Assembly: GCA_963281255.1 (NCBI GenBank)
Contig: OY725506.1
Location: forward strand, 1,779,001-1,843,000
DNA from: Aphrocallistes beatrix
Lineage: Eukaryota; Porifera; Hexactinellida; Sceptrulophora; Aphrocallistidae
Length of the DNA stretch: 64,000 bases
Reading direction: 5' to 3'
The translations under genes and the position numbers were made by a program. Each line of letters begins with the position of its first letter. Position 1 is the stretch's first letter. Below are positions 191 to 60,100 of the stretch, one piece after another. A model generated the notes under the pieces. That model was given only the letters and a program-made list of their open reading frames with translations, had not been told where the DNA came from and did no database searches.

Positions 191-3100
191 GATAACCTCC
201 CTCCCCAATTGTTAAATTCGAGTCTCAATATGAACAATGGGACGCTCACACTAACCTTTAACGAACCAATAATACCACAAACATTCAATTTAAGTGGGAT
301 TTCGATCCAAAATCATCCAGTTGTCCCAACTGAAGTCTATCAACTGACATCTGGGATTGTGACTAACCCCAATTCTCTCGAAATCAAGATTGTCCTATCC
401 ACTTTGGACTTTAATTCAATCAAAAAAGCAAATCTTGCCTTTTCAACTTCAGATACTTACATCTCTCTCGCTTCAAACACGATCCGGGATAACTCGATAA
501 GCAAAATTGGCAATGACTTGACAACGACAGCTATTATTGTTTCGCAATATGTTCCAGACTCTACAAAACCACAACTTCTTGACTTCAAATTGGATCTTTT
601 TCAAGAAATTCTAACTCTCACCTTTAATGAACCTATTGTGTTACAATCTATCGAATTTGCTGGTTTTACGATTCGCTCGGACTGTCTGAAGAGCAGTTTA
701 AATCTTACTTTGTCTGGCGGTTTCATCGATACGAGTTCTGATTCTATTATTGTTCCCATTCGTCTTCTCTCTTCAGATATATTTTTTCTAGTTGGGACTA
801 TTGGCCTTGCTGATAATGAGAATAGCACTTATTTGGAGGTATTATCTAGTTCTTTCCGTGATTTCGCCAATAATAACGTCTCTAATATTCCATGTCTTAA
901 AACTGGCGTTCATATATCAGATACTGACAGAATGATTCTACTTGCATTCGTCCTCAATGTCAATTCCAGCACTCTAACTCTAACATTTGACGATGCTGCG
1001 AATAGTGCAACATTTGATGCTAGGGGAGTTACATTGCAAAATTCGATTACTCGAGTCCCTGGCAAATTTCATACACTCTCAAGCACTACTATTACGAATT
1101 CACCTTCAGGTTCAGTTGTGGTGGTTGATATTTCTGCTGCTGATCTATTTGCCATTAATACTATAGCAGACCTTGGCCTGTCAACCAACGATACTTTCCT
1201 TACTCTTCAAGCCTCCACCATTGATGATCTTTTTGGTATCGATGTTTTAGCAATCACCGATGGAAATGCTCTTCCAGCCTCACAAGTAATTCTTGATATG
1301 CAAATACCCGTAGCTCGTAGCTTCATTCTCAACTTGGATGATGGTTTGCTACAAATACTGTTCTCTGAACCTGTTAACCCTGAGAGTCTCATATTTGATG
1401 GTCCTAATGGGATGATAGCCCTGCGAAATGCTCTAAATCCTCCAATTTCACAACAACTTATTGTTACACCAACCTCTAACATATCGCGTGAAGAAGATGG
1501 TCTGACAATTACTTTCAACCTTATTCGCAGTGATTTAGATAACATTAAAATGAATGCTGATATTGGTACATCACTCTCAAATACTTTCTTATTCCTCCCT
1601 GAAAGAAGCATACAAGACTTTTCTCAAAATGGTATTCAGGAGTCAGTTCTCACATCTACACGGATTATTGATGATGATGAAAATCCCTCATTAGTATCTT
1701 TTACTTTTGATCTTAGTAACGAAGCATTGTTATCATTAACATTTTCTGAAGCCATCAATTCGACCACTCTCAATGTTAGCGCGATCATTTTAATGGATGA
1801 CCCAGGACGCATAGCCACGTTTCTTATGCTTGCAGCAGCCAAGAGTACGATTGCTCTTCAAAATGTCCTGAACATCACTTTGATTGATTCTGATAAATTC
1901 TTCATTCAGAAAGCACCTAACTTTGCCACTTCTACAGAAAATTTATACATCAGTTTTCCTTCTGAAATGGTTTTAGATTTTTCTGGAAATTACATAAATC
2001 CAGTTTCTATTAATGCCGCGATTCGTGTATCGGAATTTATTCCTGACTCTACTTCACCTAATTTGCTATCTTTTGCATTGAATCTTTCGAGTTCAATTTT
2101 AACCCTCTCTTTTGATGATGTTATAGAATTTTCTACGCTAAATTCTTCTGAAATTTCGCTACACTCAAATATCGCTGGTTTTCAAACATTCAGGTTGACA
2201 GGTGGCATTCCTATTGGTACAAACTCTGAAATAGTTAACGTATTGTTAGATTTTCCTGATGTGAACTATATCAAATCAAGCAGTAGTTTTAACCAGCCGA
2301 ACATTTTAATTTCTTTTCCTTCTACTCTTGCAAATGACACTAACTCGAATTCTGTCATTGCAGCAGCAAACTTTTCATCTTTCCTCTTCTCTTCCGATAC
2401 AATTCCCCCTCAGATTAGTTCTTTTAATTTAGATATCAACCGTACTCGAATATTTTTGTATTTTGATGAAATAATTAAACTGAACACCCTGAATCTCTCC
2501 ACATTAACGCTGAGATCTCAATCACAGGGCGGCGAATCTTACAGATTGCAAGAACTTTCGCTTATCACGACTAGCGATAGTCACATTGTAGAATTATTCA
2601 TTTCTCCAAATGACATTCTTTCGCTGTCAATGTTTAATTTCCTTGCAACTCAGAGAGACAACTCTTATTTAACTCTCGATGGTAGCCTTGTATTAGATTT
2701 CGATAACAACCCTTCTCTGCCTTCGACTACAGGCTTACAGGTGGATTTGTTTATTCGTGATACAACTAGACCTTATATTCAATCCTATGAATTAAACTTG
2801 TCTACGCGAGAGCTTACAATTTACTTCTCTGAGGCTGTCCAATTACACACTCTAAACATATCTAAAGTAACTATTCAAAGTTCTGCTATCAATGCTTCAG
2901 TGTCACAAAGGTTTACTGTAGCTAAGGCCATGGCATATGGTAATGCTTCTTCCCCTATAGTCACGATCATCGAAGAGGATTTCAACTACATTGCAGCTCA
3001 ATTAGCTCTAGCTGTATCATCCAACACTACTTTTCTCGTCGTAGATGATGCTGCAATCTTGGATGTGTTTGATAATCCATCTTTGCCACTAACCGAGCCA

Positions 3101-6100
3101 TCGTTTGAGCCACTTATATACACTCCTGATCTTGTTGCTCCTTCCCTCGTAGGATTTACCCTCAACCTTGACCAAGATAGACTGATGCTAACCTTCTCTG
3201 AGACGATAAATCTGTTTACTTTTAATGCTCGAGCCATTACTTTACTTAGCAATAAATCAGCTATTCCGGTTTCGTCATATCAATTCCAGCACCCTGGGGC
3301 GTTTGTAAACTTTTCAACGGTCTTAGATTTATATTTCGTTAGTCAAGATGTTAATGCACTTAAATCTGATTTTCAACTCGCTACAGATATTACTAACACA
3401 TTTATTTCTCATTCAAATATGCTTGTACGTGATATGAATGATAATTTCATTGCTGCCAGGAGTTTTTCTGAGGCTTTACAAGCATCGAATTTTATTCCTG
3501 ATAGAACTCCTCCTAGTCTTGTAAGATTCTCTATAGACCTCGAACAAGGAAATATATTACTTCTCTTTAATGAACCTGTACGATCTGCTTCTTCTCTCCC
3601 AGGAGAGTTAATTTTGCAAAATATGCAGCAGAGATCACTGTCAGGGTTTTCAAACTACGCTATATCACCTGGTACTTCTGTCGTCTTAATGAACAGTACA
3701 GAACTCATTTTGAATCTCCTACTCTCGGATATTCAAGGGGTATTTTTGTTACCTAATCTTTGCTTTAATCTATCTGATTGTTTTGTTTCTTTCTCACAGA
3801 ATTTGGTTGAAGATACTAATGGAAATCTGGTGATGGGTATTTCAAGTAGCACTGCTTTCCCTGCGAGCAACTTTACTGCAGATTCACTGAATCCTTCTCT
3901 TGCGCAATTCCTAAGTTTTGACTTCAATAGCGGCCAACTTTCCTTATCATTCTCTGAAATAATTGACGCATCATCAACCGAGGTTACTCAAATCAGTCTC
4001 AGGATTAATTCGAGAGAGAACGCTCAGGGAGTTACTCTCAGTGGAGGAAACTTTAGTTCAATTAATAGTGATGTTCTCAATATTACTCTCACTCAAGATG
4101 ATTTAAATAATGTGAAGAGGAACACAATTTTATGTAGGCAAGATGTGAATTGCTTTATCCGTATCAATTCCAGTTTTATTAAGGATATTTTTGGGAACCC
4201 AATTAATGAAGTGGCTACTGTCGCATTCTCACCAACTGAACATGCGTTTGAAATTATTAGCGACGTATCATCCCCTATGTTAACCAGCTTTTCTTTGGAT
4301 ATGGATAATCTTCTTTTGAAACTCACTTTTAACGAGATTGTGAACTCTCCCACACTGCGGGAGAATGCGATTACTTTTCAGAATGCAGCTGTTACTGATA
4401 ATCTCTATACCCTTACTGGTGGGAACAGACTCACTACGAGCCAAGATCTCGTTGTTTTATTGCGTTTGAGCAACTTCGATTCAATTCGTATTAAGGCCAT
4501 ATCAAATTTTGCCTCCAGCCTCAATGATACTTTTATTAGTTTCTCCTCTGATTTAATTATGGATGTTGGTGCCGGACCTATTGGCTCTCTAGCCAATAAT
4601 GTTCAACCTATCCTCAGTACTAATGCCTTTCAAGCTTCAAATTATACTCCCGATATCACACCTCCGTCTAATTTCATATTCAATAGTATCGATCTTGACC
4701 AAGGAACCCTTGTTTTCTCTTCTAATGAACCATTAAATAACCTGACTATAAATGCTTCCAATCTTCTTCTTTCTTCTTCTCAGATTGGTGGATCAATTCT
4801 TCGTCTCACTCCCACTACTGCTTCATATTTAGACCTGTCCACAAAGCAGCAACTCGAAATTACTCTTGATCCTAGGGATATACAATTTCTCAAGCTGGAT
4901 ACTGCCCTTGCTAATTCCCAGTCAAGTACCTTTTTAAAAATTGTATCTAATGCTATTCAAGATATCGCTGGTAACCCAAATAACATTACCTCAAACCTAC
5001 CTGTTGTGAACTATTTTGGTGATACAACTCCTCCTTCTCTTGTTGAATTTGAACTAGATGCAGATTCAGGAGTTGTTAAATTAACTTTTGACGATATTAT
5101 AATTCCATTTTCTTTCCAGCCGACTCGCATTAGTGTACAGAACAATGGTTCTGAGACCTCCACATTGCCATCCGAGCTAAAATACTCCCTAACAGGTGGA
5201 GTAACTGACAGTCCTAATGGATATGTAGTCAATTTTAATCTCACACAATTGGATTTTAATATCCTGAAAGCAAACCCTAACATAGCTTTGAACAAGGAGA
5301 ATACATATCTTTGTATTACAGCTGAAGTAATTTCAGATACTGCAGGATTAAATGCAATTGAGAGATGTTTGCAAGTTTCCAATTTTACTGCAGATGACAC
5401 CCTTCCAATACTGATTGCATTTACCTTGGATCTTGATATATATCGTTTGACTCTTAGCTTCTCAGAATCACTTGATCCGATTACATTTCGGCCTCAACTT
5501 CTGATGTTGTTAAATAATCGTCAGAATTCTCTAGCCACTGAAAGGATCTCCCTCACCTCCGGGATTCTTGAACCTACTTCTCAACCCAGTATTTATTTTG
5601 TTCAACTTTCCCAATCAGATATAAATAGAATCAATAGACTGCCGGATCTCGCTACAAAGTATTCTGATAATACTTACCTCATTGCAAATTTTAGCAACGT
5701 TTTGGATGTTAGCGGAAATCCTTTAATCGCTATCAACCCTGAGTCTGCATTAAACGCTAGTAGCTTCACATTCGATATGACTCCGCCGGATCTGATCAGT
5801 TTCACTATTGACCTCAATACAGGAATGGTCGTCATGTCCTTTTCAGAGGTTGTAATGGCTTCTAGTCTCATTCAATCGAAGATTATTTTACAGGAAACTG
5901 ACACTTCATCTATGCCATATTCTTTGATTGGCGGGGGGACATTATCAAATATCAATGACATTCTCCTTACGTTCACCCTGTCCAGGGATGACTTAGATCA
6001 AATAAAAATAAGAACCTATCTTGCTACTGGAGTTGCCAATGCTTTTATGAGGCTAGAATTGGCGGCTATTTACGATGTACACGATAATGCCATCATAGCT

Positions 6101-9100
6101 ATCCCTAACGGTTCTCCTTCTCCAGCCACCCTTGTCATTCCTGATATTACTACCCCCATTCTAGAAGATTTCTCTCTGAATTTGAACAATAGCATGCTTA
6201 TTCTAACATTTTCTGAAGCAATGAACGTATCGACTATCGACCTCTCTAATTTTATTATCCAGAACCAAAGACAATCTGTTCAACTCACTCTCATCCAACT
6301 GTCTTCACCTATGCTTCAACCTTCTGTTAATGAGAGGATTGTTTCCATCTATCTGAGTGACTTTGATACGAACAGATTGAAATCTACTCAAGGGATTGCC
6401 TCATCACTGACTAACACTTATCTATCGATCCTTCCTGGGGCTGCTACCGACATGTCTAATAATTCTCTCGAAACGATAAGTGGGTTTGATGGCAAGTTGG
6501 TCGACGAATTTACACCCGATGAGATGAATCCTCAAATTGGTGATTTTGAATTCAACCTCACATCTGGCATTCTTAGACTTACCTTTAATGAAGTGATTCA
6601 ACTCTCGACTCTAAACATCGAATCATTCTTTCTCACTAATTCTCCTCTTCCGGATATGGTTAACCTGACTGGAACAATTTCTAGTGAAGATAATATTGTT
6701 GTTGATATTAGTATAGCCCCAGTTATTCTTGACCTGGTTAAGGAATTTACTCAGTTGTGTACACCTACCCTCTCACTTTGTATACTCAATTTCCAGGATG
6801 ATTCTGTCTACGACTATGTCAACAACTCAATAAGTGCTGGTTCCATTGCTATCAACCCAAGTAATCTCACCCCCGATATCCGTGGTCCCATTCTTACTCA
6901 ATTCGAGATTACTACCAACCAGTTGAATGTAGGATTGATAGACCACTACGTTCTAACACTAATTTTCGACGAAGTGATTGATCCTTCAACTCTTGACATA
7001 ACTAAAGTTATCCTTCAGAGTGACGCTCTTAGCACAATCTCCTATCCGCTAACCAGCTCCAGCATAATTCGTGTTTCATCTTTTAGCAGATCTGTTCCTA
7101 TATCGATTAGTCCTTCAGATGTTCAACAGATCGTTCGTAGGGAGCCACTTGCAAACAATGTGTCTACAACATATATCAATCTGCAACCAAATGCAGTCAC
7201 CGACACCACTACTAATTCCAACTTGGATACTACGATACAGGTAACCAGTCACGCTGCAGACTTCATTCAACCTAGACTTATATACTTTTCGTACGATATG
7301 AATACTGCACTTATAACGTTTGAATTCAGTGAAAGGATAAATTCATCGACTGCGAATCTTAATCTACTCTCTCTGTTGGATGGTGTTAGCTCAACAAACA
7401 CTTACACTCTCCTTAGCAGCTCAATCCAAGATGAGAATGTTGTTATTAAAATCAACAATTCAGATCTTGTTCAGATACGCAGACTTTCTCCTCTCTTCTT
7501 TTCTCGAATCTCGACATTTGTAACTTTAGCTGAAGGATTTATTTTGGATCACAATGGCATCATTTCAGAGCCAATCTTGAACAGACAGGTAGATGAATAT
7601 ATTGTAGATGTTACTTCACCAAGTTTACTGCGATTTGACATCGTCTTCAATGAATCAAATGCTCAGCTTTCTCTGGAATTTTCTGAACCAATTAATTTTA
7701 CTAGTCTCAATTTGAGAGGTTTCTCTCTTCAAAATTCAAGGCTTAATAATTCTATTTCGTATACACTTAGTTCCGTTTATGTAACACAAGTGGTAGATAC
7801 TAAAATTCAGATTTCTCTAACAGAATATGATACTCAGAATATCCAAAGTATTGCCAATCTCGCGACACAAAGAAACAATACATTTGCTTCTGTGAACGGT
7901 AATTTAGTCCAAGATATTGATGGTAACCTCATCACGCCTATTTTTGATTTTGATGCACTACAGGTGACTAATTTTGGATTCGATAGTACTAGGCCAACGT
8001 TGCGAAACTTTGATTTAGATTTAAATACAAACCTTATTACTTTGCATTTCGACGAGTCTGTGTCTGTCGCTAGCTTGAACATCTCACTCCTCTACCTACA
8101 AGATTCATTGGCGTCAACAAATAGGGTTGCACTCGCAACTAGTATTCCCTTATCCGCAGACAGTGCAGACATACTTATACAACTAAGCGACTATGACCGT
8201 AACATTATTCTAAGTTCCCTCATTTGCAGAACTAAGTCAACCTGCTTTATCTCATTCAATGAATTGACAGTTACGGACGTAGTTGGAAATCTAGTTGATT
8301 CTATACCCAATGGCGCGGCTTTGATAGTTGATGCTTTTGCAATTGATGTGCAACCCGTTCGCTTATTAGAGTTTGTGGAATTTAATCTTGCGTCTGGTTA
8401 CCTGAGCCTAATGCTCTCAGAGACTATCAACGTCAATACTGTCAACGCAGCATACATTACACTTCAGACCCTGTTTGTTAATCCTTTACAATCATATAAC
8501 CTCACCGGCGGAAATGCCACTACCACTAATGGCACTTTCTTGCTAATTCAAATGAATACTATCGATCTTATCACGCTACAACGGAATGAACACCTTTGCA
8601 CTCAAAGAGGCAACTGCTATGTTTCATTGACTCCTCGCTTTATAATGGATATTTTTGGAAACGCAATTGAACAAGTACTGTCTAATTCTCCTGGCTTTAT
8701 CGTAACCAACTACGTAGAAGACCAACAGAATGCCTCATTGATCAAATTTGATTTTGATTTGAATAATGCTCAGCTCTCTCTTTCGTTCAGTGAACCTGTT
8801 AACCCTCTTACTCTCAAGACAACTTCTATCATACTGCAGTCCAGTGCATTTGTGGCCAACTCTAATCTATATTACCGATTAACTGGAGGAATCACGCAGA
8901 GTATTATTGGCTCTGTTATTTTGATACAGCTCACTAACAATGACCTAAATGAAATTAAAAGGCTCAATTTTTCAACAAATGAAAACGATACTTTTATTCG
9001 TGTAGATGGTGACGTTATTGAAGATATGGCTATTATTCCTAACATGGTGAATCCTTTGTTAAATGGAGCCGCTATTCGAGTTACAACTTACACTCCTGAC

Positions 9101-12100
9101 ACAACTAGTCCAGAATTACTAGATTATCAGCTCAACCTAAACACTGATAGTTTATCAGTTACATTTAATGAACCTATTCGACCGTCTACTCTCAATCTAT
9201 CACGTATTTCATTACTCATTGGCAGTACTAATCACTCTCTCACAGGTGGTGAGTTGACACCTATGAGTAGAATAGATGGCACCCAATTATTTACAATAAA
9301 TTTAGTGGCTGGTGACATATCTGCAATCAAATTAGCTGCTGCTGCGATCAGCTCCGTTGATCTTAGCATATATCACAACACAATCCTAGACATGTCTTAT
9401 GTACCAAATGCTGCACGATTTGGATTTTCAAAAGATGTCCTTTTCAGTGATATATCACCAGCTGTCTTGCTGGCTTTTACATTAGATCTGAATTCTAATC
9501 TTATCATTCTTACCTTCTCTGATGTTATTGATGCTTCATCTGGCGATGTGAAATTTATTCGTTTGCAAGATTCATCAGACAATGTATTCTACAATTTAGA
9601 AGACTCGAATATTGACTCTTTAGATAGTCATATTATATTCATTCGACTCTCTGACAATGATGTATACCGTGTGAACTCCATTGCAGGTCTAGCTACAAAT
9701 AGTAATGATAGCTACCTCACGATGCAAGCTTCGGCCTTTAATGACTATACAGGCAATGACATCCTTGCTGTCACAAACGATAACAAAATCGCTGCAACTC
9801 CTTTTATCCCAGATACTATTATTCCTATTCTTACTAACTTTTCTTTGGACATAAATATAGGTTTGCTCGTCCTTACATTTAATGAAGCTGTTAACACAAG
9901 TACTATTGACTTCTCAGATATTACTATTCAATCTAATTCTACTGGTGAAATACTTGTCTCTCTAACACAAGGTTCTATCAATGCTACTAACAATGGGATG
10001 AATATAAATATATATATCAGTCGAATTGATTTAGATAGTTTAAAAATAATACAGTCCTTAGCTACCTCTTCGGCTAATACCTATATACACCTGTCGCAAG
10101 GAAGCATTCTTGACTTTTTTGAGAATGAGATTGCTAACACGATCAAATTGGTTGAAACTATTAATCCGGACTCAATCAACCCAATGCTTTTAAGTTTTGA
10201 ATTGGCTCTTAACGCAACCCCATCTTTAACTTTTACTTTCTCAGAACCGATCGATTTCAGCTCTTTTAACTCTCAGGCAGTTTCAATTCAATCCCAATCG
10301 AACACCTCTACTTTTATTTCTCTCACTGGTGGTAATTTAACTTTGATTGCCAACAACATTGTGAGATTAGCACTAAGCACTCCAGATTTGATGAATATTC
10401 AATTGAATCGGAATTTGGCTTCATCTCGTGATACCACTTTTATTAGCTTTGAGTCTAATCTTGTGAATGATAGTATCGGGAATTTCAATGTGCCTGTTTC
10501 TTCAGACAATGCTCTGCCTGTCCTCCTCTTCACCCCTGACACAGAGCCACCTGTCCTTGTCTACTTCTCTCTGGACATGCAAGCTAGATCACTCACTCTG
10601 GTGTTCTCTGAAGTTGTGGACACTGATACAATCGTTGCTTCAGGATTTACACTGTCCGATGCTAGATCTCCAATTCAATCCTATACTCTTACAGGATTTA
10701 TGAACCTTCTCTCTCCAAACAATATTTTATCTCTACAAATAAATTATATTGACTTTAATTCTATCACTTCTCTAGATCAACTTGCTATTTCCAAAGAAAC
10801 TACTTTCCTTAGCTTTATTTATGCCGCTATCAGAGATATGAGTAATAATGCAATCATAGCTGTTCCAATCCCCATTTCTATACCTGTATTCATCTTCACT
10901 CCTGACGTAACTAATCCAACTTTTGTTAATTTCTCAATTTCTCTGGACAATCTTAGTCTAAGCTTGACATTTTCGGAAACGATTGATCCTTCAACATTTT
11001 TACTAGACTATCTTACTCTCTATAGTAGTAGTGATCTCTCTACTGCAACTTCATTTAATATTTCGACTAATACTACTCTCACCTTGTCCCTTTCAACTAT
11101 CACGGAGATATTTTTGACTCTTGAAGATGCCAATGCTCTCAAGAGGATTAGAGAACTAGGTTCTAACTCGAGCAACACCTTCCTCTTAATTCGTTCTGGC
11201 GCTATCAATGACACGTTTGCCAATCCTTTAATAGGTACGCCCCTGCCATTAAGACCATTCTCATATATTCCTGACTCTACGAAACCTGCTTTGGTTGCTA
11301 CCCACTTAGATATGAATACCGGCATATTGCTTCTAACATTCGCTGAAATTGTTGATGGTGATTCATTTAGAACTAATTTCATTACTCTCAAAAGCAATAG
11401 CACCGAATCCTTCCTAAACTATACGCTCCAATCTTCATCTAGCACGACAGACGATAGTCCCATCATCACTGTTACTTTAAGTGATTCTGATCTAAATCTT
11501 ATAAAGTCTATCCGTCCGTTGGCTATCAGTTCTGAGTCCTCTGTGGTTGAGATCTTGGGCGGAACGGTTCGTGACATTGCTGGAAACTTCAACGAATTAA
11601 TGCAAAGCAACTTCTCTGATTTTATCTCTGACTTTAGACCACCTTCCTTGTTAAATTTCGTACTTGATATGAACTTGGGGCAACTCAACATTACGCTCTC
11701 TGAGGCAATCGATCCTCTTACAGTTGATGTAACATTCCTTACTCTACAGAATTTTACATCTCAACAATCTTCTTTTTCGCTCACTGAAGGCCAATTTACA
11801 TTATATCAATCAACCAATTTATTAATATATATTAATTCTTCAGACCTCAATTCTATTAAGATTAACCGATATCTAGCTACAAGTTCGCTAACAACCTACC
11901 TCTCCTTTGGTATGTTGTTTCTAAGGGACACGTTTAGCAATCCAATTGAGGATATCCCCACTACAAATGGCAGAGCAGTATCTCTCTTCGTTCCTGATAT
12001 GACCGCTCCGACTTTAATTACATTTAATATGGACGCTGCCAATGGTTTGATCGTACTCATATTTGATGAAGCAGTAAATGTAATTGATTCATTTAACGTG

Positions 12101-15100
12101 AGTGACATTATATTACAGAATGAGTTAAATAATTCTACTATTTCCTACAGACTATCAAATAGCACCGTGCCACGCCTTGATACTGATAATATTGTTCTCA
12201 CTCTCAGTGTATTTGATAGAAACCAATTGGTTATTCGAGACCTGTGTCTTGTCATGGAGAAGTGTTTCCTATCTTTTACTCAGGATTTGGTTAGAGACAT
12301 GAATGCTAATAGAGTTACCTCTCGTACTATTGCAGAGGTTTCTACTATTTTTGTAAAAGATACCATTTCTCCAACTATTTCTCAATTTATTTCAATCGAT
12401 CTCAATACGGGCGTAATACAGCTGAGATTTTCTGAAACTGTCAATGCATCTTCTGTCAATATTTCCGCAATTACCTTCACTGCAGGCGTTTCAGCTACAT
12501 CCGGAGTAACGCTTACCGGGGGAGATGTTCTCTCTTCTGACAGCAACGTTTTGGATATCCAATTGAGTATATTGGATTTAGGTGAAATCAAGCGTACTCC
12601 TATACTGTGCTCAGACAGACAGTTATGTGCTCTCAAATTTTTGAATCCGTTTGTTAAGGATATCAGTCAAAATTTATTCACTAACCCACTAAACCCATTA
12701 ACTACTCTTCCTTTAGTTCTCTATCCTGACAATACGCCCCCGTTGTTACTTGCATTTTATCTCGATATGAACACAGGATTAATCATTATGGAATTCAATG
12801 AACCTATTTTTGGGCTTTCTTTAAAGTCTAATTTGGTCGCTTTTCAGGACAACACTTCAAGTCGAGTCTCCTATGATTTAACCGGATTGATAGCAGGAAC
12901 TCCCAGTGCCAATCAATTTAACATCAGTTTCACAATATCTCCCAATGACTTAATTGAATTGAAAGCGATTCCGAGGCTAGTAACCTCAGTCAATGACACA
13001 TATATCACATTTGAGAGCGACTTAATTTCTGATGTCACATTTAATTCTATTGACGCACTCAATGATGGTGAAGCACTACAAGCTACGAAATTCATGGCCG
13101 ACATTTCCCCTCCTGAATTGTTCAGTTTTCCTGCATTTGATCTAAACGTTGGAATTATGGTCATTTCTTTTAATGAACCTGTCGATCCTCTGAGTATAAA
13201 TTCTTCGCTATTTGTGTTGGAAAACTTTGCTGCGGATATTAACTACACATTCACTTCGCTCTCCGCATATTTTGGCACCAGCAATTCCTCCCTTAACTTT
13301 CAGCTCTCTAATGAAGATATCAGGCAAGTAAAATTGACCAGTGGCCTAGGAGACAGCAGAATCAATACATTCATTAAAGTTCTGTCCGGTTCTATATCTG
13401 ATGTATCAGGAAACAGATTGGTGGTAACCAGTGCCCGAGCTGGAGTATTAACCTATGACCCTGACGTCTCTAATCCTCAACTTATTTACTTCGACCTCGA
13501 TATGAATCAAGGTATTCTCTTATTCGAGTTTTCAGACGTTGTGAATAGTCAAACTGCGTCTCCTGGTCAGATAACATTACAAGATGCTTTGTTAAGTTCT
13601 AATTCATTCACTCTTACAGGTGGAATTGCGTCTGCTAGTCCAGATTACAATCTTTCTCTTGTACTATCCTTCTATGATCTGAATCAAATTAAGAGGCTAC
13701 CAAACTTGGCAACTAATCGTAATGATACTTTTATATCTGTTACTTCCCTCTTTCTTCAAGATTTAGATACTAGAAACATCCTCCCTGCGAATATTCAGGT
13801 TAGGCAGTTTATAATTGATTCCACTCCACCTAAAATTGAAAATTATACTCTCAACTTGGAATTCGGATATATCATAATTCAATTTTCAGAGGAGGTGAAT
13901 ATTACATCTCTCGTTATTAATCAATTGACTTTACAAAATAGTGCGAATATTTCTCAGTCTAGTGGGTCAGTAACTCTGTCTTCGGGACTAGTCACCCCAC
14001 CTGATTCCAGTCATATATTCAACCTGTCCCTAGTTCAATCAGACCTAAATTCTCTCAAGAGCATGATTCAGCTTGGAACTCTTGTGAACAATACTTATTT
14101 ATCGATAACAAACAGATTCATTAAAGACATGTTCGGTATTAATATTTTAGAAATATCTCCATACGATGCACTGATGGTGTCCGTTATTGATATTGACAAC
14201 ATTTCTCCTCGACTTGTTTCATTTGATTTTGACTTGGATTTAGGTACTCTAAAATTATATTTTGATGAGACTATTGTCCCATCCAGCCTTATAGTTCAAA
14301 ACATTTTGCTTTCGAATACTGTTTCTGGATCGATTCAATACATGCTGACTTCAGACACATCTCTCGTCAACAACACGTTTACCACTGTCACTCTTTCAAT
14401 TGGAAATAATGAGTTGAATGCAATTAAAATATTATCAGACCTTGCGAAATCTAACTCAACTACATTCTTACAAGTCAGAATGTCAGTAGTTGAAGATGCT
14501 AACCAGAATCCAGCCAGGCAATCTTCATTCATTCCCGTTTCAAATTATATCCCTGATACTACTCCTCCGAAGTTGCTCAGTTTTTCTTTGGATCTAAATT
14601 TAGATGAAATTTATTTAACTTTTTCAGAAGCTGTCAGATCAGATATCATCAATTCTTCTGCATTCTCTTTGGCTTTTGTTGATCCATCCCATTTTAATGC
14701 AACATCATTTTTGTTACCAGATAAATTTAAATCTGGAGTTGGAGCTGTTATTACTCTGAGAGATTTAAAAGACATCTTTGCTGGCTTTACTGATCTATTG
14801 GAGATTTTCCGTTCACTTTCTTTTCTCTCTCCTCAAACTTCGGTTTCAAATATTTTTAATTCATTCTTAAATAGAATTTCTCTTATCATGGAATCTAACA
14901 CTACATCTGATCACTCATTAAATCCCATAGTTAGCATTCCAATTAATGCTCCTCTCGTTGTTGCAAACGTTTATTCAGATGTTACACGTCCTTCACTTAC
15001 TTCTTTTGACCTCGATATGGATAGTGGCGTCATTTCTTTTTACTTCAATGACATTATTAATCATTACTCTTTGGAGATTAGGTCTGTACAGTTGGATTCT

Positions 15101-48100: not shown

Positions 48101-51100
48101 CCTAATTTGTCACGATTTTCTCTAAACCTTACTACTGGAGAACTTGCTCTTCAATTTACTGAAATTGTCGATATACAGAGCTTGAATGTCACAGAACTAT
48201 ACATTCAAAATTCTCGAACTAACATGACATCAGATGTAGTTTATCGTTTGACTGGAGCTAGTTTTGTACCAGTAGAAGATGAAGTTGTGATTAGTATCAT
48301 TCTAAACGATTTCGATTTGAATCAATTGAAACGATATAGCAATATTGGTACTAACAGTAATGATACTTTTATATTCTTTGGTGATCGCTTAATTGCTGAC
48401 CTGAATTTAAACCGTGTTACCGCCATCTCTCCCAGTAATGCATTGCCTGCTTATATTCATTCAACAGACTTAGTAGATCCTGAACTTGTTGAATTTTTCT
48501 TTAATCTTAATAACGGTACAATTATTCTCACTTTTAGTGAAACAGTGAATCTGACTTCTTTCAATCCTAATTCACTAACTATCCAATGCTGTTCTAATGC
48601 TCTTAATCCTCTCCAGTCTTATACTCTTGTCTCTAGTCGTGCACAAGCCTTTAGCTCGCAAACTGATGGTGATCATATACTTTTTATTATTCTTAGTCTT
48701 TTCGATTTAAACAAGTTGAAAGAATTCACTACAATTGCGACCAGTAGAGATACAACTTATTTATCTGCTACTCCCAGCCTCATAAGCGATATGACTCAAA
48801 ATACCTTGCAACCTATCCCTAGCACATCTGCTCTTAGGGCAGCATTTTTTATTACTGATTCCACGGCTCCGGTACTTGTCTCCTTTTCACTTGACCTTGA
48901 TTCTGATATACTCAGCCTAACATTTTCTGAAACTATCCTAACGACATCTTTCTTACCAGATAAACTTACCATCAGCAATAATATGTCCTCTAATTATACG
49001 TTACTCACGAGTTATCCAGTACATAACAACAGTTTTATTCAAATAATACACCTCAGTTCAGAAGATATAAACGCGATTAAATCTAATCCTTCACTTGCTA
49101 GTTCTTTTCAGTCTACTTTTATTCTTCATCGCACAGGACTTGTGCAAGATATGAACAACAACACAGTTTTATCTTCGCTAATTATCCAAACCTCTAATTT
49201 TGTTCCAGATTCTACTCCTCCTCAGCTTGTGTGTTATACACTTGACATGGATACAGGAGAGCTTATTATGACTCTTAGCGAACCTGTTAATGCTTCCTCA
49301 ATCAATCCTACTTTCTTGACTTTCCAACCCAACTTTTTTACTTCTGATCCCCTGTTAAATGTTAAATTAACTTCTGTTCAAGTTTCTCCAATACCTACAT
49401 CCCTCCTCGTAGTTAATATAAGTAATTCAGATCTTAATAAAATAAAGCAACGAACCGAACTGGCAACTAATATGACTAACACCTACCTATCAATTGAAGA
49501 GATGTTCATTCAGGATATGAATAGAAACTTTATTGTTCCAATTAGCCAAACATTTGCTTTATTGGCTTGTGATTTTATTCCTGATTTAACTCGCCCAATT
49601 CTCATTGCTTTCAACTTAATAATGGAAGGTGGGAAAATTCCAGTGATGATCCACCTCCAATTCTCTGAAACGGTTAATTCAAGTACACTAATTATTCATC
49701 CCCTAATTACTCTCCATTCAGATGAATCATTTAATATAGGTTTAAGCCTCAATTTAACTGATGGTGATATTAAATTAGAGAATTCTGATATTCTTATTCT
49801 AAATATCACTGAGGCCGATCTCATTGCTATTCGAGATATGGATCCACTATTGCAAACAGCTAATACCTCTTACTTATCCATTTTAGATGATGCTGTCCAA
49901 GATATGAACTCTAATTACCTTTTGGCTTCGACAGGCATTCGCGTCTCTCTCTATATGCTAGATTTGACTACACCTGACATAGAAAGTTTCGAATTGGATC
50001 TTGATCAAAGCTATTTAATCATAACCTTCACATCACCGGTTGTTCTTTCTAGCTTTGATATTACTCGACTTACCCTTTCCAATTCTTCACTTACTTCTAC
50101 AGTATCACTTACACTTTTATTTGCTCCAAGTATTTCTATTGGCAATAGTGTAATCCGTTCAAAACTCAGCTCTGTAGATATCAATTTTATTAAATCGGAC
50201 TCAGATTTTGGTAATTCAATCAACAATACATATCTTTCAACACAAAGAAGTTTAGCTTTCAGTCCAAGTGGTAACCCCACCACTTTTATTTTACCTGAAA
50301 ATGCTCTACAAGCTAAGTCTATCCTCCCTGACAAAACCAGACCCAATCTTTTAAAATTCGACTTTGAATATGACGCAATGATTTTACGTCTATATTTTGA
50401 TGAACCAATGAGTGTTGATTCATTGTATGCACCGGGGTTTACATTGCAGAACTTAGTACGTTTTCCAACTGAATCATATTCACTAACAAATGTTACATCA
50501 AACTCGAGAGACGGCCTTACGATCAATGTAATTTTAAATCTCACTGATCAGAATTCGATTAAATCTCGTGACGATCTTTTAATTAACAATGCATCAACCT
50601 TTCTTTCAGTTTCGCCGCTAGCAATATCTGACACCAGCGGCAATCTTGTCAATGAAATTCCTGCTTCTGATGCTCAAGTTGTTGGATTCTTTGGATCGGA
50701 TATGTCTATTCCAGAACTAAATTCTTTTGGTTTTGATTCCAGTGACAATATACTCACCCTTTATTTTTCAGAAACTGTCAACATTACTACTCTAAATATA
50801 TCTGCTATTACTCTCCAAGATCAGAAGTTTAATATCTCCTTAAACATATCTTCCCACTCTCCCACAACTTCTCTGCGTTCCGACATTCAACCTAACTCTG
50901 TATTTAGCATACCTTTAAGCATTAGTGATCTAGCTACGATTAAGAGTAGTAGAATATGTACCACACAGTTTAGTTGTTATCTAAGCATCGCCAGCAATGC
51001 AGTATATGATATGGTGGGATTAGGATTGAAAGCTATCCAATCAGCTAATGCACTACGAGTCCTTTTCTTTAAAGATGATTCAGCACTACCTTTACTCACA

Positions 51101-54100
51101 AACTTTGTTCAATTTAATGCCAGTGAGTATACTCTCATACTTTCATTCAATGATGCAGTATTGTCCTCTACTTTTAATGCTTCAGCACTTTCGTTGTTAA
51201 CTTTAATCCCCGATCCTTTTGAAACAGTTACTTTGAATAGCAGTATCGCATACAATATTAATCCTTATACAATTAAGATTTTGATTTCGGCTACAGACAA
51301 GTATCTCCTACAAATTAATCTACAAATTTGTACATATCGAGGTAACTGCTACTTAAGACTTAGTGACTCACTCATTCAAGATCTCAGTTTTAATCCATCT
51401 TTGAGCTCTTCCGGTTTAATAGCTGAAGCATTCATAGATGATACGGTTATGCCTTACCTTAATTCTTTTCAATTGGACTTAGATTTAGGCATCTTGACTT
51501 TAACATTTACAGAGTCTATTAGAGCTAGCAGTTTCAGTTCTAATGGAATTATCATACAAAATGCTCGAAATGCTACTTTTACATCTCAATTAACAACAAG
51601 TACTACGGATAGTGTGGATGGACCAGTGATTAGAGTGAACATATCATCCAATGACTTAAATATAATTAAATCTACCTCCTATGCCAAGAGTGAGAATGAT
51701 ACGTATCTTAGCATTGGCAGCAGTGCTTTTACAGACACTGCACGTATTCCTAATAGTATATTTCCGATTCACATTAGCTCAGGGATCAAGGTTTCTAGTT
51801 ACACAGAAGATATCCGAAGACCTGCTCTTCAATCTTTCATTCTCAATCTTGACGATCGTATACTTCTTCTCACGTTTACTGAATCTATATTAGTAAGTTC
51901 CTTAAACTTGTCCTCCTTAATTATCCATTCATCTCCAGCTGGTGGAATCAGCCTCCCTCTCACTCTTTCTTCAGTTGACCCAGTCAGTCCACCTCTAATA
52001 GGAGCCAGGATCATTCCAATCCGTTTATCTCAACCTATTATTTCTTTTCTTAAACTAAATGATTCAATTGGCACATCTGTATTAAATACCTATTTCAGTT
52101 CAATAGAAAAATCATTTTATGATACAGCTGGTAATCCTAACAACCCCGTATCCCGCATTCAGGCTGAAAATGTCATTCAAGATCAGTTATTCCCCGTTCT
52201 AGAATCATTTTCTCTTGACATGGATGTAGGAGTACTTAACCTGACGTTCTCAGATGTAATTTCAATCAGTACGTTTGATATAACTGCTGTAATCATTCAG
52301 AATGCCGCCTATTCATCTCCTTCAAACCGGTTTCCACTTACTGAAGCTGATAGCTTTTACACATCTGATGGTTATGATGTAGTAATTGATCTTGGATTTT
52401 CTGATTTTATAAATATCAAAGCAGCCACAGGGGTTGCTGACAGTAATTCAACTTCTTATATTACTCTCCAAGCTCATGCTATCAATGATCACGAGAACAG
52501 AGACGTTCAAGCTTTGACCAATGGCAACGCACTTCCTGCTTCTAGTTTCATTTCTGATTTATCTAGACCTGAATTGCTAACCTATGAGCTTGATTTAAAT
52601 ATCGGGACCCTGACCTTAATCTTCAATGATGCAATAGAGACTTCCTCATTCAATCAATCTGAAATCATGCTTCAAAACGCACCTTTTGTAAATTTTAACA
52701 ATGCTACGCTGACCTTTTCTGGAGGATCTTTTGTTCGAACTCTCAATGCAAATACCATAGTGTTAACTATAACATCCAAAGATCTTAATGAAATCAAGAG
52801 AAATGTTCAATTAGCCACTGACTCAACTAATACTTATCTTGCTTTCTCTAATCGGAGTGTAAATGATATCGCTCTAAATCCTGTTTTTGAAGTCCTTAAT
52901 GGTAATGCTCGACAGGTTGATACTTTTATACCAGATATAACTGCTCCATTACTTCAACATTTTGATATCAATATGAATACTGGTTTGATCATGCTGCAAT
53001 TTAACGAAATTATTCGTACCGACTCTTTCAACTTTACAGGAATTATTATTCAGAACCATCAAAATATATCTTTCTCATCACACAGCCTTACACTAACTGG
53101 TGGGATGATAATCGGTGCTAATAGTGATCAAATCCTTCTTAGTATAAGTTCTTATGACCTCGATAGACTGAAGTCGCAATTCAATTTAGCAACCAGCATC
53201 AGTGATTCTTATATTTATCTTAACCGCGCTTTTACTGATATGAATGACAACACAGTACAAGCTAACCCGTTAGCATTAATGGTTCGTTCTTTTATCAAGG
53301 ATACTACACAACCTATCAAATTAGGTTTTGAACTTGATATGAATTCTAGGATTCTTATGATATACTTTTCAGAATTTGTTGACAGAACTACTGCTAGCCC
53401 ATCAAGATTAACCTTAACATCAGATCCGGTTGCATCAAAAAGTAATCATACTTTTACTGGAGGAATCTATAATATAACAAATTTCACAATACTGACTGTT
53501 CAATTATCAGATTTTGATTTTTACTCCTTACAATCACTCTCCGATCTAGCAACTTTACCACAAAATGTATATCTCATTCTAGATTCTGGATTCATCTTTG
53601 ATTCTGCAAGTAACCCCTTAAATTCTAGTTCAATGCCCATATCAATCAATACTTTTACTGCCGATTCCACATTGCCGAGCCTTATTAAATTCTCACTGGA
53701 TTTGAATTCAAATATACTTTCACTGGAATTTAACGATGTTATGAATGTTTCATCATTTTATCCTCCAGGAGTTCAAATTCTTAGTTTAATGAATGAATCT
53801 TTAGCCACTTTAATTCGACTTAACTCCTCTGTTGTATCCCAGGCTAATTTGCTCAACGTTCTTGATGTAATGCTTAGTAGAGCAGATAGAGAGTTAATCA
53901 CATCAAGACAAGAGTTAGCTGTTTCTTTCAACACGACTTTCTTGATGTTGAACGATAGTACCATCACTGATATAAACGGAAATTCAATTCTATCTACTCC
54001 AATCATTCCTACCTCTTCATACATCCCAGATGAAATGTCCCCTTCAGTTGAACTATTTTCGCTTGATCTCTCAAATGGAACTTTAATTTTGACCTTTTCA

Positions 54101-57100
54101 GAAGTTGTACCATTTCACTCTCTCAATGCTTCTAGTATTACAATTGCTTCTTCTACAGCGAATATCCCTGACCATTCCCACTCATTTGTCAATAGTTCGG
54201 TTTGCAATGCTGACGTAATTTCATCCATTATCAAAGTGCAAATTGGGCAAAATGATTTGAACATCATTAAGAATGAAAGAAATCTTGCTTCCAACCGTGG
54301 GAATACAGAACTCGTCTATTTTACTCATTCTTTTACTGATACATCTGGGAATTTTGCCTTTGTTAAATTTCCTGTTTTGGATACTTTTGTTCAAGATATT
54401 GTTAATCCACGATTTCTTTCCTTTGATTTAGATATGAACATTGGTATTATGTTTATCTCGTTTTCTGAAACTGTGGATATCACCAGCATTATGGCATCTG
54501 GTTTTATATTAAGAAATGATTCAACCCTAAACAATCAAGCATATTTTATGCTGAGAGTATTTACTTATATTGTTCCAATATCATTTTCTCGTATAAATGT
54601 CACTATTTCATTGGATGACATTTTAGAAATAAAGCGAAACAGATATTTAGCAACTTTATCTGACAACACATATCTTGATCTTTCTCCAAATGCGATATCT
54701 GATACAAATTCTAACTTACTTGAACGTTCTCTTTATCCTCTGAAGGTTAGCACTTACATTCTAGATTCTACTCCGCCCCTTCTTGTTGGATTTATTTTGG
54801 ATCTTAACACGAATGTTTTTACTTTGGAATTTGACGAACCGATCGATGTTTTGACCTTTAACTTTACTGAATGTATGCTCACGAACTCTTCTAACAACTC
54901 TTTATCTTTTCAATTTACATCTGGATTCTATCCACTGTTTGACGCTCAAGTTATTAATATATCGCTCGTCAAATCAGATATTGACTCACTTAATTTGCTT
55001 CCTGACTTATGTACTTCTACATCTAACTGCCTATTATTTCATACACAATACCTAGCTGAAGACATTGCTGGAAATAACGTCATTCCCATTCCTAGGTACA
55101 ATGCATTATCAGTGACACAATACATTCGAGATGTTACTTCCCCAATGCTACAACAGTTTCTTGAGTTTGATTTTAATACTGGTACCATTCTTCTACAATT
55201 TGATGAAGTAATTATCTTCTCTTCAATTAATCCAACTTCACTTAGATTAGCCCAAGAAAATGGGATATCTTCGCTATTTGTTGCTTTATCTGGATTTAAC
55301 ACAGTCCAAATAATAAATGGCACAATAGTTATGATAACTCTTACAAGTTCAGATCTAAATATTGTCAAGGTATCAAGTAATGCCTTTTGTCGTTCAAGAG
55401 TCTCATGTTTTGTTCGATATGACTCTACTTTTCTCACTGATCAAGCTGGTAATCCAGTTCTCCCTATATCTGGAAATGATCTAGTTATTAACATCAGCGA
55501 GAGACCAGAGAAGCTTGTACCCGATACTACACCACCCCTTCTCTTACAATTCTCTTTGAATCTTAATGATTCTATTTTAACTCTCTCTTTCAACGAAGCT
55601 ATTCTTACCTCTACTTTTGCACCTGGTGCTATTACACTCCTTGATTCCTTTTCAGCTAATAATTCCTATCAACTAACAGATGGCTCTGTAACCAAATTGG
55701 GTGATAACATAATCATGCTCTCTCTCCTTGATTCAGATATAGATAGAATTAAGATTAATTTAGAACTGGCCTATTCCATTAACACTACTTGGTTAAGTCA
55801 TACCGGTTCTCTTATTAGTGATATATTTTCAAATTTTATTGAACCTCGAATTACCAACATTTCAACGATTCAAGCTAACTCATTTACCTCTGATAGGATA
55901 CGCCCCATTCCAATTGAGTTTTCTGAATTAGATCTTGAAAAAGGAGAAATTGAATTGAGATATTCTGAACCTCTGTTACCCAATTCATTTGATTATACAC
56001 AAATTGCACTAGTTAATAATATTGGTGAAAAAATTTCGTTCACTGGAGGAACTGCTAAGAGAGATCCAACTGATCATGATCTAGTTATTATTACTCTCAC
56101 TGATAACGATCTTATTAGGCTTAAAGTTAACACAGCTATTGGCACAAGCATCGATAATTCTTTCATCGAGTTAGGTGACGCAGCATTCAAAGATACGAAT
56201 GGTAATAATGCATCTGGTGTGATGACTAATCTTCAAGTTAGCATCTTTATACCGGACCTGATTCCACCTAATTTTGTCAAGTTTGATATTAACATGAACA
56301 GTGGAGAATTGTTTCTATTGTTTGACGATGTGGTTGATACAAGTACATTGAATGCAGACGAGATAACTATTCATAATTCCAATTCTATTTCCACATCCTC
56401 GAATAACTTATTTACACTTACACGTGGTGGCACATCCAGTTTAAACAGCTTTTCTGTTTTAGTTAACATATTCTCTGGTGATTTAGATGAGTTAAAAATG
56501 AGAGAACAACTTGCCATTTCTCAGAATACTACATTTATTACTTTGAATGCTAATGCGATAACTGATACTGGTGGCTTGGGAATTAGAGCTGTTACTGTAC
56601 CTGTTCAAGTGCAGGTGTTTATTCAGGATACGATGAGGCCTGAATTGAGACGTTTTGCGATTGATGCTGATGCTGGTGCTATCACACTCTATTTTTCTGA
56701 GGCAATGAATGTAACATCATTACAACCTCAGAACATAACACTCCAGAATAATATGAATATTTCATTAGCTACCCAGACTTATACTCTAACAGGTGGTATG
56801 CCCATTCCTAATGTAACTGCAGTCCAATTTATTCTATATTTCAACATGTTCGACATGCATAACTTATTTGAATTACGGAACCTGGCTACACAGACTGAAG
56901 ACACTTTTATTTCTTTCCCAGATCAATTAATCACTGACATGAATGATAATCTCGTTATAGGAATTAATAATACATTCGCCGCGAACTCTTCTGGTCATAC
57001 TTCTGATATGATGCCCCCTTCTCTAATTTTTTTCAGTTTCGATTTAAATTTAGGAATATTATCCTTGACATTCGATGAACCTGTTGATACTAGCACATTA

Positions 57101-60100
57101 ATTCCTAATCGATTTTCTCTTCAGAGCCAGAATGCTCTTACTTCTGGACAGTTTGTTATGCTTACTGGAGGCCATTCTATTGTATATCCAAAAATAGATT
57201 CTGGGGTTGAACTATCTAACTCGAATGAGATTATTCAATTTTTCCTTACTAATCGAGATTTGAATGAGATAAAAAAATTGACCAATCTTGCTACCTACCG
57301 AGATAATACTTACCTAATCCTTAGTACTGGTTCAGTTTTAGACACATCTGGAAACCCTGCTGAAGCCGTTATGAATGGATCTGCTTTAAGAGCGACTTCA
57401 TATGTAATGGACACAACTTCACCCCAACTGCTTAATTTTTCAATTGACCTGAGCCAAGAAGTAGTCACTCTAACATTTTCTGAAACTGTAAATGTTCAAA
57501 CATTAAATTATTCTTCTATTTCTTTATATGGGAATATTTCTACTCTGCAACCAAGTTATACTTTGAGTAATGGTACTGTCACCTCGACTAATGACTTCCT
57601 CGTTTCCTTTTACTTTGATAGAACTGATTTGAACAGAATCAAATTGCTACGTGAATTAATTACGAGTGAAGAGAATTCCTTTTTACAGATAACTACTGGA
57701 GCCATACGTGATATGAATAATAATTCAGTCGTTCCAATTAACATTACTTATCTCCTTCGAATTGAGATATTCAAAGAGGATAGCAATCCACCCACCCTAG
57801 AGCACTATATATTTGACCTTGATGCTGGACTAATCCATTTATATTTTGATGAAACTATTGATACATCCACATTCGATCCTGCACAAATCGTTATTTCAAA
57901 TACTTCCTCTAATACTGGTAGAAGCATCTCCTTGAATGGAGGTAGTGTGAGTGAGAATAGTGAAAATGTTACAATTTTTATTACTTCTACGGATTTGAAT
58001 GTTATTAAGCGATATAGCGATTTAGTAATAGACGAAAATTCTACATTCTTATCATTTTCATCTGCTCTCGCAATGGACATGAATTTCAATTCTATCTCGC
58101 AGTTGGACATTAATAGTGCTATAAACCCAATTCAGTTCATCCCTGACACCACTAGACCAGAATTGATAGGTTTTAGCCTTGATATGACAGGAATAAATCG
58201 TGAATTACCTTTGCGGCTCTCGCTAACATTTTCAGAAACTATTGACATCTCTTCTTTTTCAGCATCTTCATTCACCTTTGTTGACAACTCATCATTACCT
58301 CGCATCACTTTTACCCTCCAGAGTGGCGTTATAATTCCTAATAGCGCGTCAAATTTAGAACTCGAAGTAATTATAGATAACCAAGATCTTGATCAGATCA
58401 AGTCATCACCTCCATTGCTACTATACCCAAATAGCTCTTTCTTATCTACTTTGGATGGCGGTTTCCTTGATACCAGTGATAATCCATTGAAATCTATATC
58501 TCTCACTGAGCCCCTCCCCATAACTGAATATCTCGCAGATCTCTCGACCCCTGTGCTTATTCGGTTTGAATTAGATATGGACACTTCGACACTCAGCCTA
58601 ACTTGGAGTGAGAGAATTATACTTACTTCTTTTAATTTTAGGGGTATCACTCTTCAATCAATGACAGATTTACTTAATTCTCAATCATATACCTTAACTG
58701 GAGCCACATTTCAATATGGATTACTTGAAACAATTTTGCAGATTCAATTATCGAAATTTGATGAAGATATCATAAAAGCTAATATATACCTGGCTATCTC
58801 TAGGGATAGTACATTTTTATCAATAACTCGTGGAATTGTATTTGATCCCGCAAACAACCCATCTCAACAAATAAATCCTGGCTCTGCCCTTCAGGCCGCC
58901 GAGTATGAAACCGAACGTATTCGCCCATTCCTAGTTGCATGGGATATCTTATTTGCTACTAAGACTGTAACCCTCCTATTCTCTGAAACAGTTAATGTGA
59001 CTTCGTTTTTACCAGATGAAATATCGTTTCAAAATAGAAGATCGAGTCCTACTCAAAAATATTCGCTCAGTGGTGGTGATACTCTATCTAATTTTGGTAC
59101 TATAGTTGAACTTATACTTACTAGCTCAGACCTGAATGCAATCAAAGCCCAGGAAGCTCTCCTGACAAATTTGAATAATTCATATATTACAGTTACAGAT
59201 GATGTAATCTATGATATGAGTTTAAATCCTATTCTACCGATATCTGCTGGAAATGCCTTGCAAGTTAGGAGTTTTAATCGGGATTCAATGAGACCATTCT
59301 TAGTAACCTCTTCTCTCAATCTTACTATCCGTTATCTAACTCTCACTTTCGATGAGACTGTTAACAAGTCCAGTCTAACTTTAGGTGGCATAACATTATC
59401 TTCTTTTGATGGACTCAATTATACACATTATTTCCCTGATTCTTCTATATGGGATCAAACCAATTCGCCTACTCTAATCATCCGATTATCTACTTCAGAT
59501 TTTAATGAAATCACTCGAAATCGTATATGCATTACTCAATCAAATTGTTTTATCTCGCTAAAGAACGCCACTATATTTGATATGAGCAATTTGGCTTCAA
59601 TTGGTTTAGTCACTAGATTAATCACAAACTTTTATCCAGATTTATCCCCACCAGTTGTAGTCGAATTCACCGAGTATGATAGTACATATGGCAGGATAAT
59701 CCTAACCTTGTCAGAAACTATTGAAGTTTCCTCTGTAAATTTTACTCAATTAACATTAGTTTCTTTATTTGAGAATCCCATTGAATCTTACACTCTAACT
59801 GATACCAGTTATGTTAACAATTCAGATAGTTCAATATTAGAAATAATTTTGAGCCCCCAAGATCTCTTACAAATCCAGACACGTAGTCAGCTATGTTTTT
59901 CACAAGGTTCCTGCTATATTACACTTTTAGCAAGTTTTCTAAATGATATACATGGAAATAAAATTGTCCCACACATTTTAGGGCAATGGCCTGGTCTTAT
60001 TGCAAAAAAATTCATCATTGACTCACGACGCCCGAAAATATGGTCATTCTCTTTAGATATGAATGCTGGAATATTTAATTTCACTTTTGACGAACCAATA

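Follow-up and report, generated by a model that had tools for sequence, protein, structure and literature searches.

Can a giant repetitive protein keep a fixed order of its domains, and what does such an order tell about selection? This question is raised by a stretch of 64,000 nucleotides from the glass sponge Aphrocallistes beatrix (contig OY725506.1, positions 1,779,001 to 1,843,000, or G000:C20:1779001-1843000 in our numbering; hereafter, the window), located on a 2.84-Mb contig in a 100.5-Mb assembly of 28 contigs. Positions 2-64000 of the window constitute a single open frame of 21,333 codons without a stop, which is the middle portion (43%) of a frame of 49,068 codons (G000:C20:1708475-1855678), corresponding to one exon of 147.2 kb. 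The product predicted from the first ATG has 49,053 aa and a mass of 5.35 MDa, and is built of tandem domains. Our main new result, based on sequence comparison, is that these domains follow an order of 23 positions, or slots, that is conserved in other sponges.

A 23-domain register in the window

The original prediction, made from the window alone, proposed seven complete copies of a 23-domain super-repeat. Using a domain profile (hidden Markov model, HMM) built from motif-cut seeds, we detected 171 complete domains of 115-141 aa and two cut domains, and reproduced the seven copies (8529, 8481, 8544, 8574, 8541, 8580 and 8580 bp), with copy starts at 191, 8720, 17201, 25745, 34319, 42860, 51440 and 60020. 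Despite the variation in domain length, the count of 23 is the same in all seven copies. The features of the window are as follows.

2..64000, +, part of the open frame, stop-free, with 171 complete domains and two cut ones
191..8719, +, 23-domain copy 1, in the phase of the original prediction
8720..17200, +, 23-domain copy 2
17201..25744, +, 23-domain copy 3
25745..34318, +, 23-domain copy 4
34319..42859, +, 23-domain copy 5
42860..51439, +, 23-domain copy 6
51440..60019, +, 23-domain copy 7
4262..12727, +, seventh of the 14 units, in the phase that the exon as a whole suggests (slots 12-23, then 1-11)
12728, 21287, 29828, 38426, 46979, +, starts of units 8-12
55523, +, start of unit 13, which extends 108 bases beyond the window
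3500..4261, +, cysteine-doublet domains, slots 10-11, C85/C91 in both
11996, 20561, 29084, 37667, 46223 (slot 10 without the pair), 54764, 63353 (past the window end), +, doublets of slots 10-11 in later copies
7982..8719, +, cysteine-doublet domains, slots 22-23, C85/C91 in both; stretch modelled with AlphaFold2
16457, 25013, 33566, 42119, 50699, 59282, +, doublets of slots 22-23 in later copies
920..1294, +, slot 3 domain, E25D
9449, 17939, 26471, 35054, 43604, 52181, 60755, +, slot 3 domain in later copies
6518..6874, +, exon domain 206 (slot 18), extra C85/C91 pair

The all-against-all identity matrix displays the expected stripes at all seven multiples of 23 (lags 23-161; 0.284-0.299, as opposed to 0.259 at other lags; standard deviation 0.0055, maximum 0.279), and 23 is the best period of the window domains. 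Mean identity between domains of the same slot is 0.291, while the background between window domains is ~25.9% and the maximum obtained in 2000 shuffles of domain order was 0.2648 (z = 21.7). The tree of the 171 domains groups them by slot, with 105 label changes compared to 143.5 ± 2.8 (minimum 134) in 500 shuffles, and not by copy or neighbourhood, for which 126 changes are needed compared to 118.7 ± 3.3; among 65 sister pairs, 21 share the slot and three share the copy. Order shuffles, label permutations and the tree together rule out chance or alignment bias as the source of the register. The claim that slot-specific features recur without exception holds for the domain count but not for every feature, as single domains are noisy. 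In leave-one-out scoring, the own slot was best for 73 of the 171 window domains (7.4 by chance) and for 147 of 328 when domains 66-393 of the exon were scored (14.3 by chance). The Cys85-Cys91 pair is present at 29 of the 30 expected places that start in the window.

Organization of the whole exon

Along the entire exon the domain HMM produced 395 tandem matches, arranged head-to-tail with a mean domain length of ~124 aa; the match at the start is weak and the one at the end covers half a domain, so that the chain has ~394.5 domains. The exon begins with ~61 N-terminal domains of period 5, continues with 14 units of 23 (approximately domains 62-383), only part of which is seen in the window, and ends with an 11-domain tail stopping mid-domain. 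In domains 62-383 period 23 has a z of 42, and no other period between 2 and 40 exceeds z = 1.4, which rules out an alternative period for the central zone. When profiles were trained on the window domains alone, 26 of the 27 blocks from domain 61 to domain 384 were assigned to one register, including 11 of the 12 blocks lying wholly outside the training domains. The only sign of a register slip in this range is one block of 12 (domains 169-180), which slightly favours a shift of half a repeat, that is, 12 domains. Domains 385-393 are out of the 23-register. No tandem repeat was found at the DNA level.

The slots differ in chemistry. Cys85 and Cys91 occur together in slots 10, 11, 22 and 23 at 52 of 56 places in the 14 units, plus in one other domain (206). 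Slots 22 and 23 have both cysteines in 14 of 14 units; as for the four misses, domain 129 has two cysteines one column off, and domains 313, 382 and 383 lack the pair. The glutamate of column 25 is replaced by aspartate in slot 3 of all 14 units and in slot 14 of 13, and slot 3 is further marked by T94, A97, D107, A110, T112 and G114, each in 11-12 of the 14 units. Overall, 22 slot signature cells were counted in the exon and none in 200 permutations. Since an E25D domain comes third and a cysteine doublet comes last in each half, the unit can be divided into halves of 12 and 11 domains, the first being one domain longer. Between-slot similarity likewise peaks at a difference of 12 (0.273 vs 0.262 overall). 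Four acidic residues are nearly invariant over 393 domains, namely, D1 (100%), D102 (99%), D74 (86%) and E25 (85%).

The N-terminal zone (domains 1-61; loci L010-L013) has period 5 (z = 32) and a mutual identity of 0.36, higher than that of the 23-zone. Cys85 and Cys91 are present at all 13 fifth places (domains 1, 6 ... 61), and 12 of these 13 domains have a further cysteine at column 57, 58 or 60. Among proteins P0161-P0260, we found no one-to-one place for this zone in other species. P0161, encoded on a contig of 387,822 bases, combines a period of 5 (z = 9.4) with a younger repeat of 15 domains that contains it (z = 17.7, identity 0.515). The six offsets at which P0161 best fits the exon all fall in one phase of 5, and its Cys85/Cys91 domains, with Cys60, occupy places 1, 16 and 31. 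Because P0161 shares period, phase and cysteine marks, the period-5 zone has a relative elsewhere.

The frame ends mid-domain at a TAA (C20:1855678; locus L019), the last piece comprising the first 54 columns of a domain, and no further domain match was found within 24 kb downstream of the exon. These two features might suggest a truncated gene, with either its 3′ end lost or a splice site at the break. However, seven relatives (P0002, P0064, P0121, P0122, P0125, P0167 and P0182) stop mid-domain at the same place, which rules out truncation and makes this stop very likely, on sequence grounds, the true C-terminus. With the cut chosen, 19 of 163 entries end in a half-domain, and P0002, P0064, P0121, P0122 and P0125 are those among the 19 that align to the exon end; the remaining ones lie elsewhere and may be intron edges, while P0167 and P0182, which have longer loops, were added separately. 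A free half-domain at the end of a chain is odd, and another chain might complete it. Two pieces of what looks by eye like a Tc1/mariner-type transposase lie ~3 kb past the exon on its downstream side (C20 ~1858754-1859850, locus L019).

Conservation of the slot order in other sponges

Three protein searches at E <= 1e-3 yielded 196, 39 and 122 matches, the listings covering 120, 39 and 120 of them. Among the matches listed, relatives with a species name come from the sponges Corticium, Geodia, Dysidea, Ephydatia and Amphimedon and from the choanoflagellate Salpingoeca. In an initial pass, 34 of 124 relatives displayed slot order at p < 0.01. When the 42 entries of 30 domains or more (39 proteins plus three exons of this genome) were considered, 14 had the 23-slot order with z above 16, and in 13 of these 14 the strongest lag of their own is 23. 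The homoscleromorph Corticium candelabrum (P0125) is among the carriers of the 23-slot order, and the demosponge Geodia barretti (P0022) has a z of 7.7 over 19 domains. The 23-slot order was not found in Salpingoeca rosetta P0158 (z = 0.7), a protein of 39 domains whose identity of 0.499 at lag 25 marks a repeat of different length and much more recent origin. The 23-slot order is present in the eukprot transcript P0123, which is colinear with P0131 (0.362 vs 0.308); should P0123 be of choanoflagellate origin, the super-repeat would predate animals.

Several relatives can be matched to the exon domain by domain. The best places are exon domains 330-394 for P0122 (65 domains; 0.361 vs 0.310), 344-394 for P0125 (51 domains; 0.352 vs 0.313), 126-185 for P0124 (60 domains; 0.344 vs 0.307), 60-120 for P0126 (61 domains; 0.339 vs 0.307) and 355-394 for P0167 (40 domains; 0.380 vs 0.310). 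None of these five has gained or lost a domain at the main gap cost. P0132, P0134, P0138 and P0141 are placed less sharply (0.306-0.323 vs 0.287-0.301). P0134 and P0122, apparently from one 263,480-base contig, join within domain 330 and jointly cover domains 273-394. In the gapped domain-level alignment, there was no gap in 38 of the 48 rows listed of 163; among 30 chosen homologs, 29, 21 and 6 alignments were gap-free at gap costs of 0.12, 0.05 and 0.02, respectively, the noise at 0.02 being larger than the penalty. Two Ephydatia proteins, P0226 (EMCRGX_G018693) and P0253 (EMCRGX_G018689), fit best at exon domains 182-212 (0.317 vs 0.308) and 274-292 (0.296 vs 0.287); they apparently belong to the same contig and the margins are small, so the gene of Ephydatia may be split among several gene models.

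The slot-specific residues are also shared. In 29 chosen homologs, some of them near-duplicates, the Cys85-Cys91 pair is present at 169 of 186 places in slots 10, 11, 22 and 23, and of the 1019 homolog cells in the matching slot 824 keep the signature residue, as opposed to 14% elsewhere. Even the exceptions are mostly common: 19 of the 27 exceptions to the cysteine rule in relatives are shared peculiarities of domains 206, 382 and 383, three have a cysteine one column off and five are unshared. The extra pair of domain 206 is also found in P0192, P0138, P0139, P0147 and Ephydatia P0226, while at domains 382 and 383 the pair is absent from the exon and from all seven relatives covering them. 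Two sets of these proteins are near-duplicates and not independent, P0138/P0139/P0147 and P0132/P0136.

For the five best-resolved relatives, identity at orthologous positions is 0.34-0.38, whereas sister units within one gene share ~0.29, which implies that the units predate the divergence of these sponges. Of 34 homolog units, 32 are closest in the unit tree to the C20 unit at their position, although the tree is partly circular, as its 20 chosen homologs were pre-placed by best offset. P0131, P0123 and P0145 were placed by hand, and free alignment moves P0131 elsewhere, with no unique place. Sequence comparison shows that the 23-slot order, slot-specific residues and resolvable positions of single domains are shared with other sponges; the units therefore arose through block duplication in a common ancestor of those lineages and have been maintained since.

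Domain fold and paralogs

We modelled the stretch of slots 22-23 with AlphaFold2 and compared the model with known structures, including by Foldseek. The predicted fold is that of an S-layer (SbsC)-like immunoglobulin (Ig) domain over most of one domain. Antibody chains topping the Foldseek list were discounted, as their TM-score over both domains was ~0.2, and the single-domain match was favoured. Sequence identity between the exon domain and SbsC S-layer Ig-like domains is ~10%. To our knowledge, SbsC-type bacterial lattice proteins have few such domains and no comparable super-repeat. Pfam searches gave no I-set or fn3 match, either for window positions 2-14998 or for 140 pairs of window domains. 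Big_5 (PF13205) matched 27 of the 140 pairs at E <= 0.05 (best 1.2e-5) and was not listed for the 4999-aa stretch at E <= 1; the relative P0101 passes the curated Big_5 cut-off with 56.1 bits. Searching the Protein Data Bank by sequence revealed no match at E <= 1 (first 3000 residues) or E <= 5 (profile).

The same genome encodes further members of the family. An exon of 89 domains (G000:C7:2759787-2793503, minus strand; loci L022-L026), with small domain-bearing frames upstream, has periods 18 and 9 (z = 10.7 and 8.5). It is colinear with Dysidea avara P0127, Corticium P0137 and Ephydatia P0020, each having one best place (0.357-0.377 vs 0.317-0.331); Dysidea P0079 is also colinear with this paralog and not with the 23-family. 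On another contig (G000:C11:435001-474999, minus strand; loci L029-L032) there are frames of 44, 32, 25 and 7 domains, the first of which ends in an IPT/TIG domain, and no clear super-repeat was found in them. As a candidate feature of the paralogs, the 23-slot order can be dismissed, being absent or weak in four C7 and C11 exons (z from -0.9 to 2.8). In at least two genes of the family, therefore, the super-repeat has a fixed length particular to that gene.

History or selection

The original prediction held that a constant count implies selection on a fixed length or a fixed pattern of binding sites. Selection cannot be inferred from the window alone, since copies made by duplicating a whole 23-domain block are in register from the start, and recombination between diverged domains is rare. 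Selection on the slot pattern is nevertheless supported by the slot signatures and by the other sponges: slot features are held while the rest of the sequence decays, and shared ancestry by itself would be expected to decay more evenly. A ruler function, a binding partner and a fixed length as such are what we infer beyond this.

We consider it rather probable that the exon encodes a secreted extracellular filament with a conserved 23-slot order, in which slots carry different contact surfaces. Ancestral 23-domain units, with halves of 12 and 11 domains on the same plan, would have been laid down by block duplication and then maintained. At ~4 nm per domain, the putative N-glycosylated filament would be ~1.6 micrometres long. 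Firm domain-domain joints, perhaps braced by metal through D1, E25, D74 and D102, might turn the chain into a rod or cable; the conserved acids are suggestive of calcium as the metal. If different slots bear different contact surfaces, partners or neighbouring chains could be met about every 50 nm (half a unit) and 100 nm (a unit), by analogy with titin super-repeats on the thick filament.

Several observations weigh against this filament. Signal peptide, membrane anchor and partner were not found for the gene, nor was an upstream exon identified, though no systematic search for one was made, and the highest 19-residue hydrophobic average in the product is 1.99. Glycosylation sequons are enriched 1.21-fold, which is weak beside the controls D-x-S/T (1.10-fold) and Q-x-S/T (1.17-fold). 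Three of the 22 signature cells are retained in fewer than half of homolog domains. For P0131, P0123 and P0189 the register is clear while more than one unit position fits, the placement of P0134 and P0138 is ambiguous in their later parts, and P0145 requires a gap. Given these ambiguous placements, a number of units constant in every lineage is a possibility rather than a result.

The strongest rival is that the count is frozen history. According to it, amplification of one block of 23 domains produced the 14 copies, diverged domains stopped recombining, and the count has been kept by lack of mutation in a bulk extracellular coat in which order is irrelevant. Block duplication by itself yields equal counts, same-slot identity (29%) is near the background (26%), no tandem repeat is left at the DNA level, and adjacent and distant units barely differ (0.294 at lag 23 and 0.281 at lag 230). 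For the count alone this account is viable. It explains slot chemistry poorly, however: the aspartate of slot 3 and the cysteines of slots 22 and 23 have persisted in all 14 units, most such residues are held in homologs, conservation is uneven among slots (0.265 to 0.359), and a stop-free frame of 49,068 codons needs purifying selection. We therefore regard frozen history as possible but rather unlikely.

Far less probable is a polyprotein, cut after secretion so that a 23-domain block would be the mature molecule. Tandem equal units are what such a precursor would have, but there is a single furin-type motif in 49,068 residues, dibasic pairs are fewer than expected (79 vs 90), and units are joined without linkers, the largest gap between domain matches in the exon being 26 residues. 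Finally, although very long repetitive frames are often artefacts or bacterial adhesins and Big_5, the 'Bacterial Ig-like domain', matches some relatives, we dismiss assembly artefact and bacterial contamination as highly improbable, given that the exon lies on a megabase-scale contig of a 100.5-Mb genome, that a single 147-kb exon encoding 49,014 aa has been published for a glass sponge (PMC10282587), that ~26% inter-domain identity with no DNA-level tandem repeat makes repeat collapse or expansion implausible, and that colinear relatives occur in named sponges.

A more specific version of the filament can be put forward tentatively, and we think it is doubtful in its entirety. It would be a ruler as old as sponges, in which ~12 x 5, 14 x (12+11) and 11 domains, ~394 in all, had their order and slot chemistry fixed before the sponge classes split, contacts recur at ~50 and 100 nm in the sponge matrix, and the terminal half-domain is completed by strands of another molecule, joining chains end to end.

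If the secreted filament is real, it would be among the longest predicted animal proteins, and would provide a second case, independent of muscle titin, of an Ig-like super-repeat in exact register. One-to-one matching of domains between species, over long stretches, would make it possible to test directly whether selection acts on domain number and order in giant proteins. Sponge matrix biology would gain a defined, very large candidate component, which, within the literature searched, is in print only as a size record.

Comparison with known giant proteins

The main text of the Aphrocallistes vastus genome paper (PMC10282587) reports Avas.s016.g412.i1, with 49,014 aa, 5.34 MDa and a single 147-kb exon; there the gene is named once, for its size only, with no domain, super-repeat or relatives given. 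The two predictions agree closely (49,014 vs 49,053 aa, 5.34 vs 5.35 MDa, 147 vs 147.2 kb, both single-exon), whereas the assemblies differ (80.3 Mb in 186 scaffolds there, 100.5 Mb in 28 contigs here), which points to a different assembly or to a close relative. Our three protein searches, whose length limits leave out a protein this long, listed no entry of such size or from A. vastus. Judged by size and the single exon, the window gene is almost surely the one reported under that name. In our literature search this was the only paper that concerned the gene, and no description of the super-repeat was among the matches listed, most subscription papers and bioRxiv being outside its coverage.

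Giant proteins of Dysidea (P0127), Ephydatia (P0020) and Salpingoeca rosetta (P0158) have the same tandem domain without the order of the 23-family. Titin is the closest architectural parallel; its super-repeat zones of 7 and 11 domains are described in PMC3859903, and the human protein is listed with 38,138 aa and 363 exons in PMC12198301. The original prediction likened the higher-order architecture to that of titin while taking the domain family to be unrelated, and our results agree: both proteins are giant chains of Ig-like domains with zoned super-repeats (7 and 11 in titin; 5 and 23 = 12+11 in the sponge gene), a likeness of architecture only and not of kinship. Titin is intracellular and made of I-set and FnIII domains encoded by 363 exons, whereas the sponge protein is larger, uses another Ig-like domain of the S-layer/Big_5 kind, is encoded by one exon, is probably extracellular, and is present in a homoscleromorph, a demosponge and this genome.

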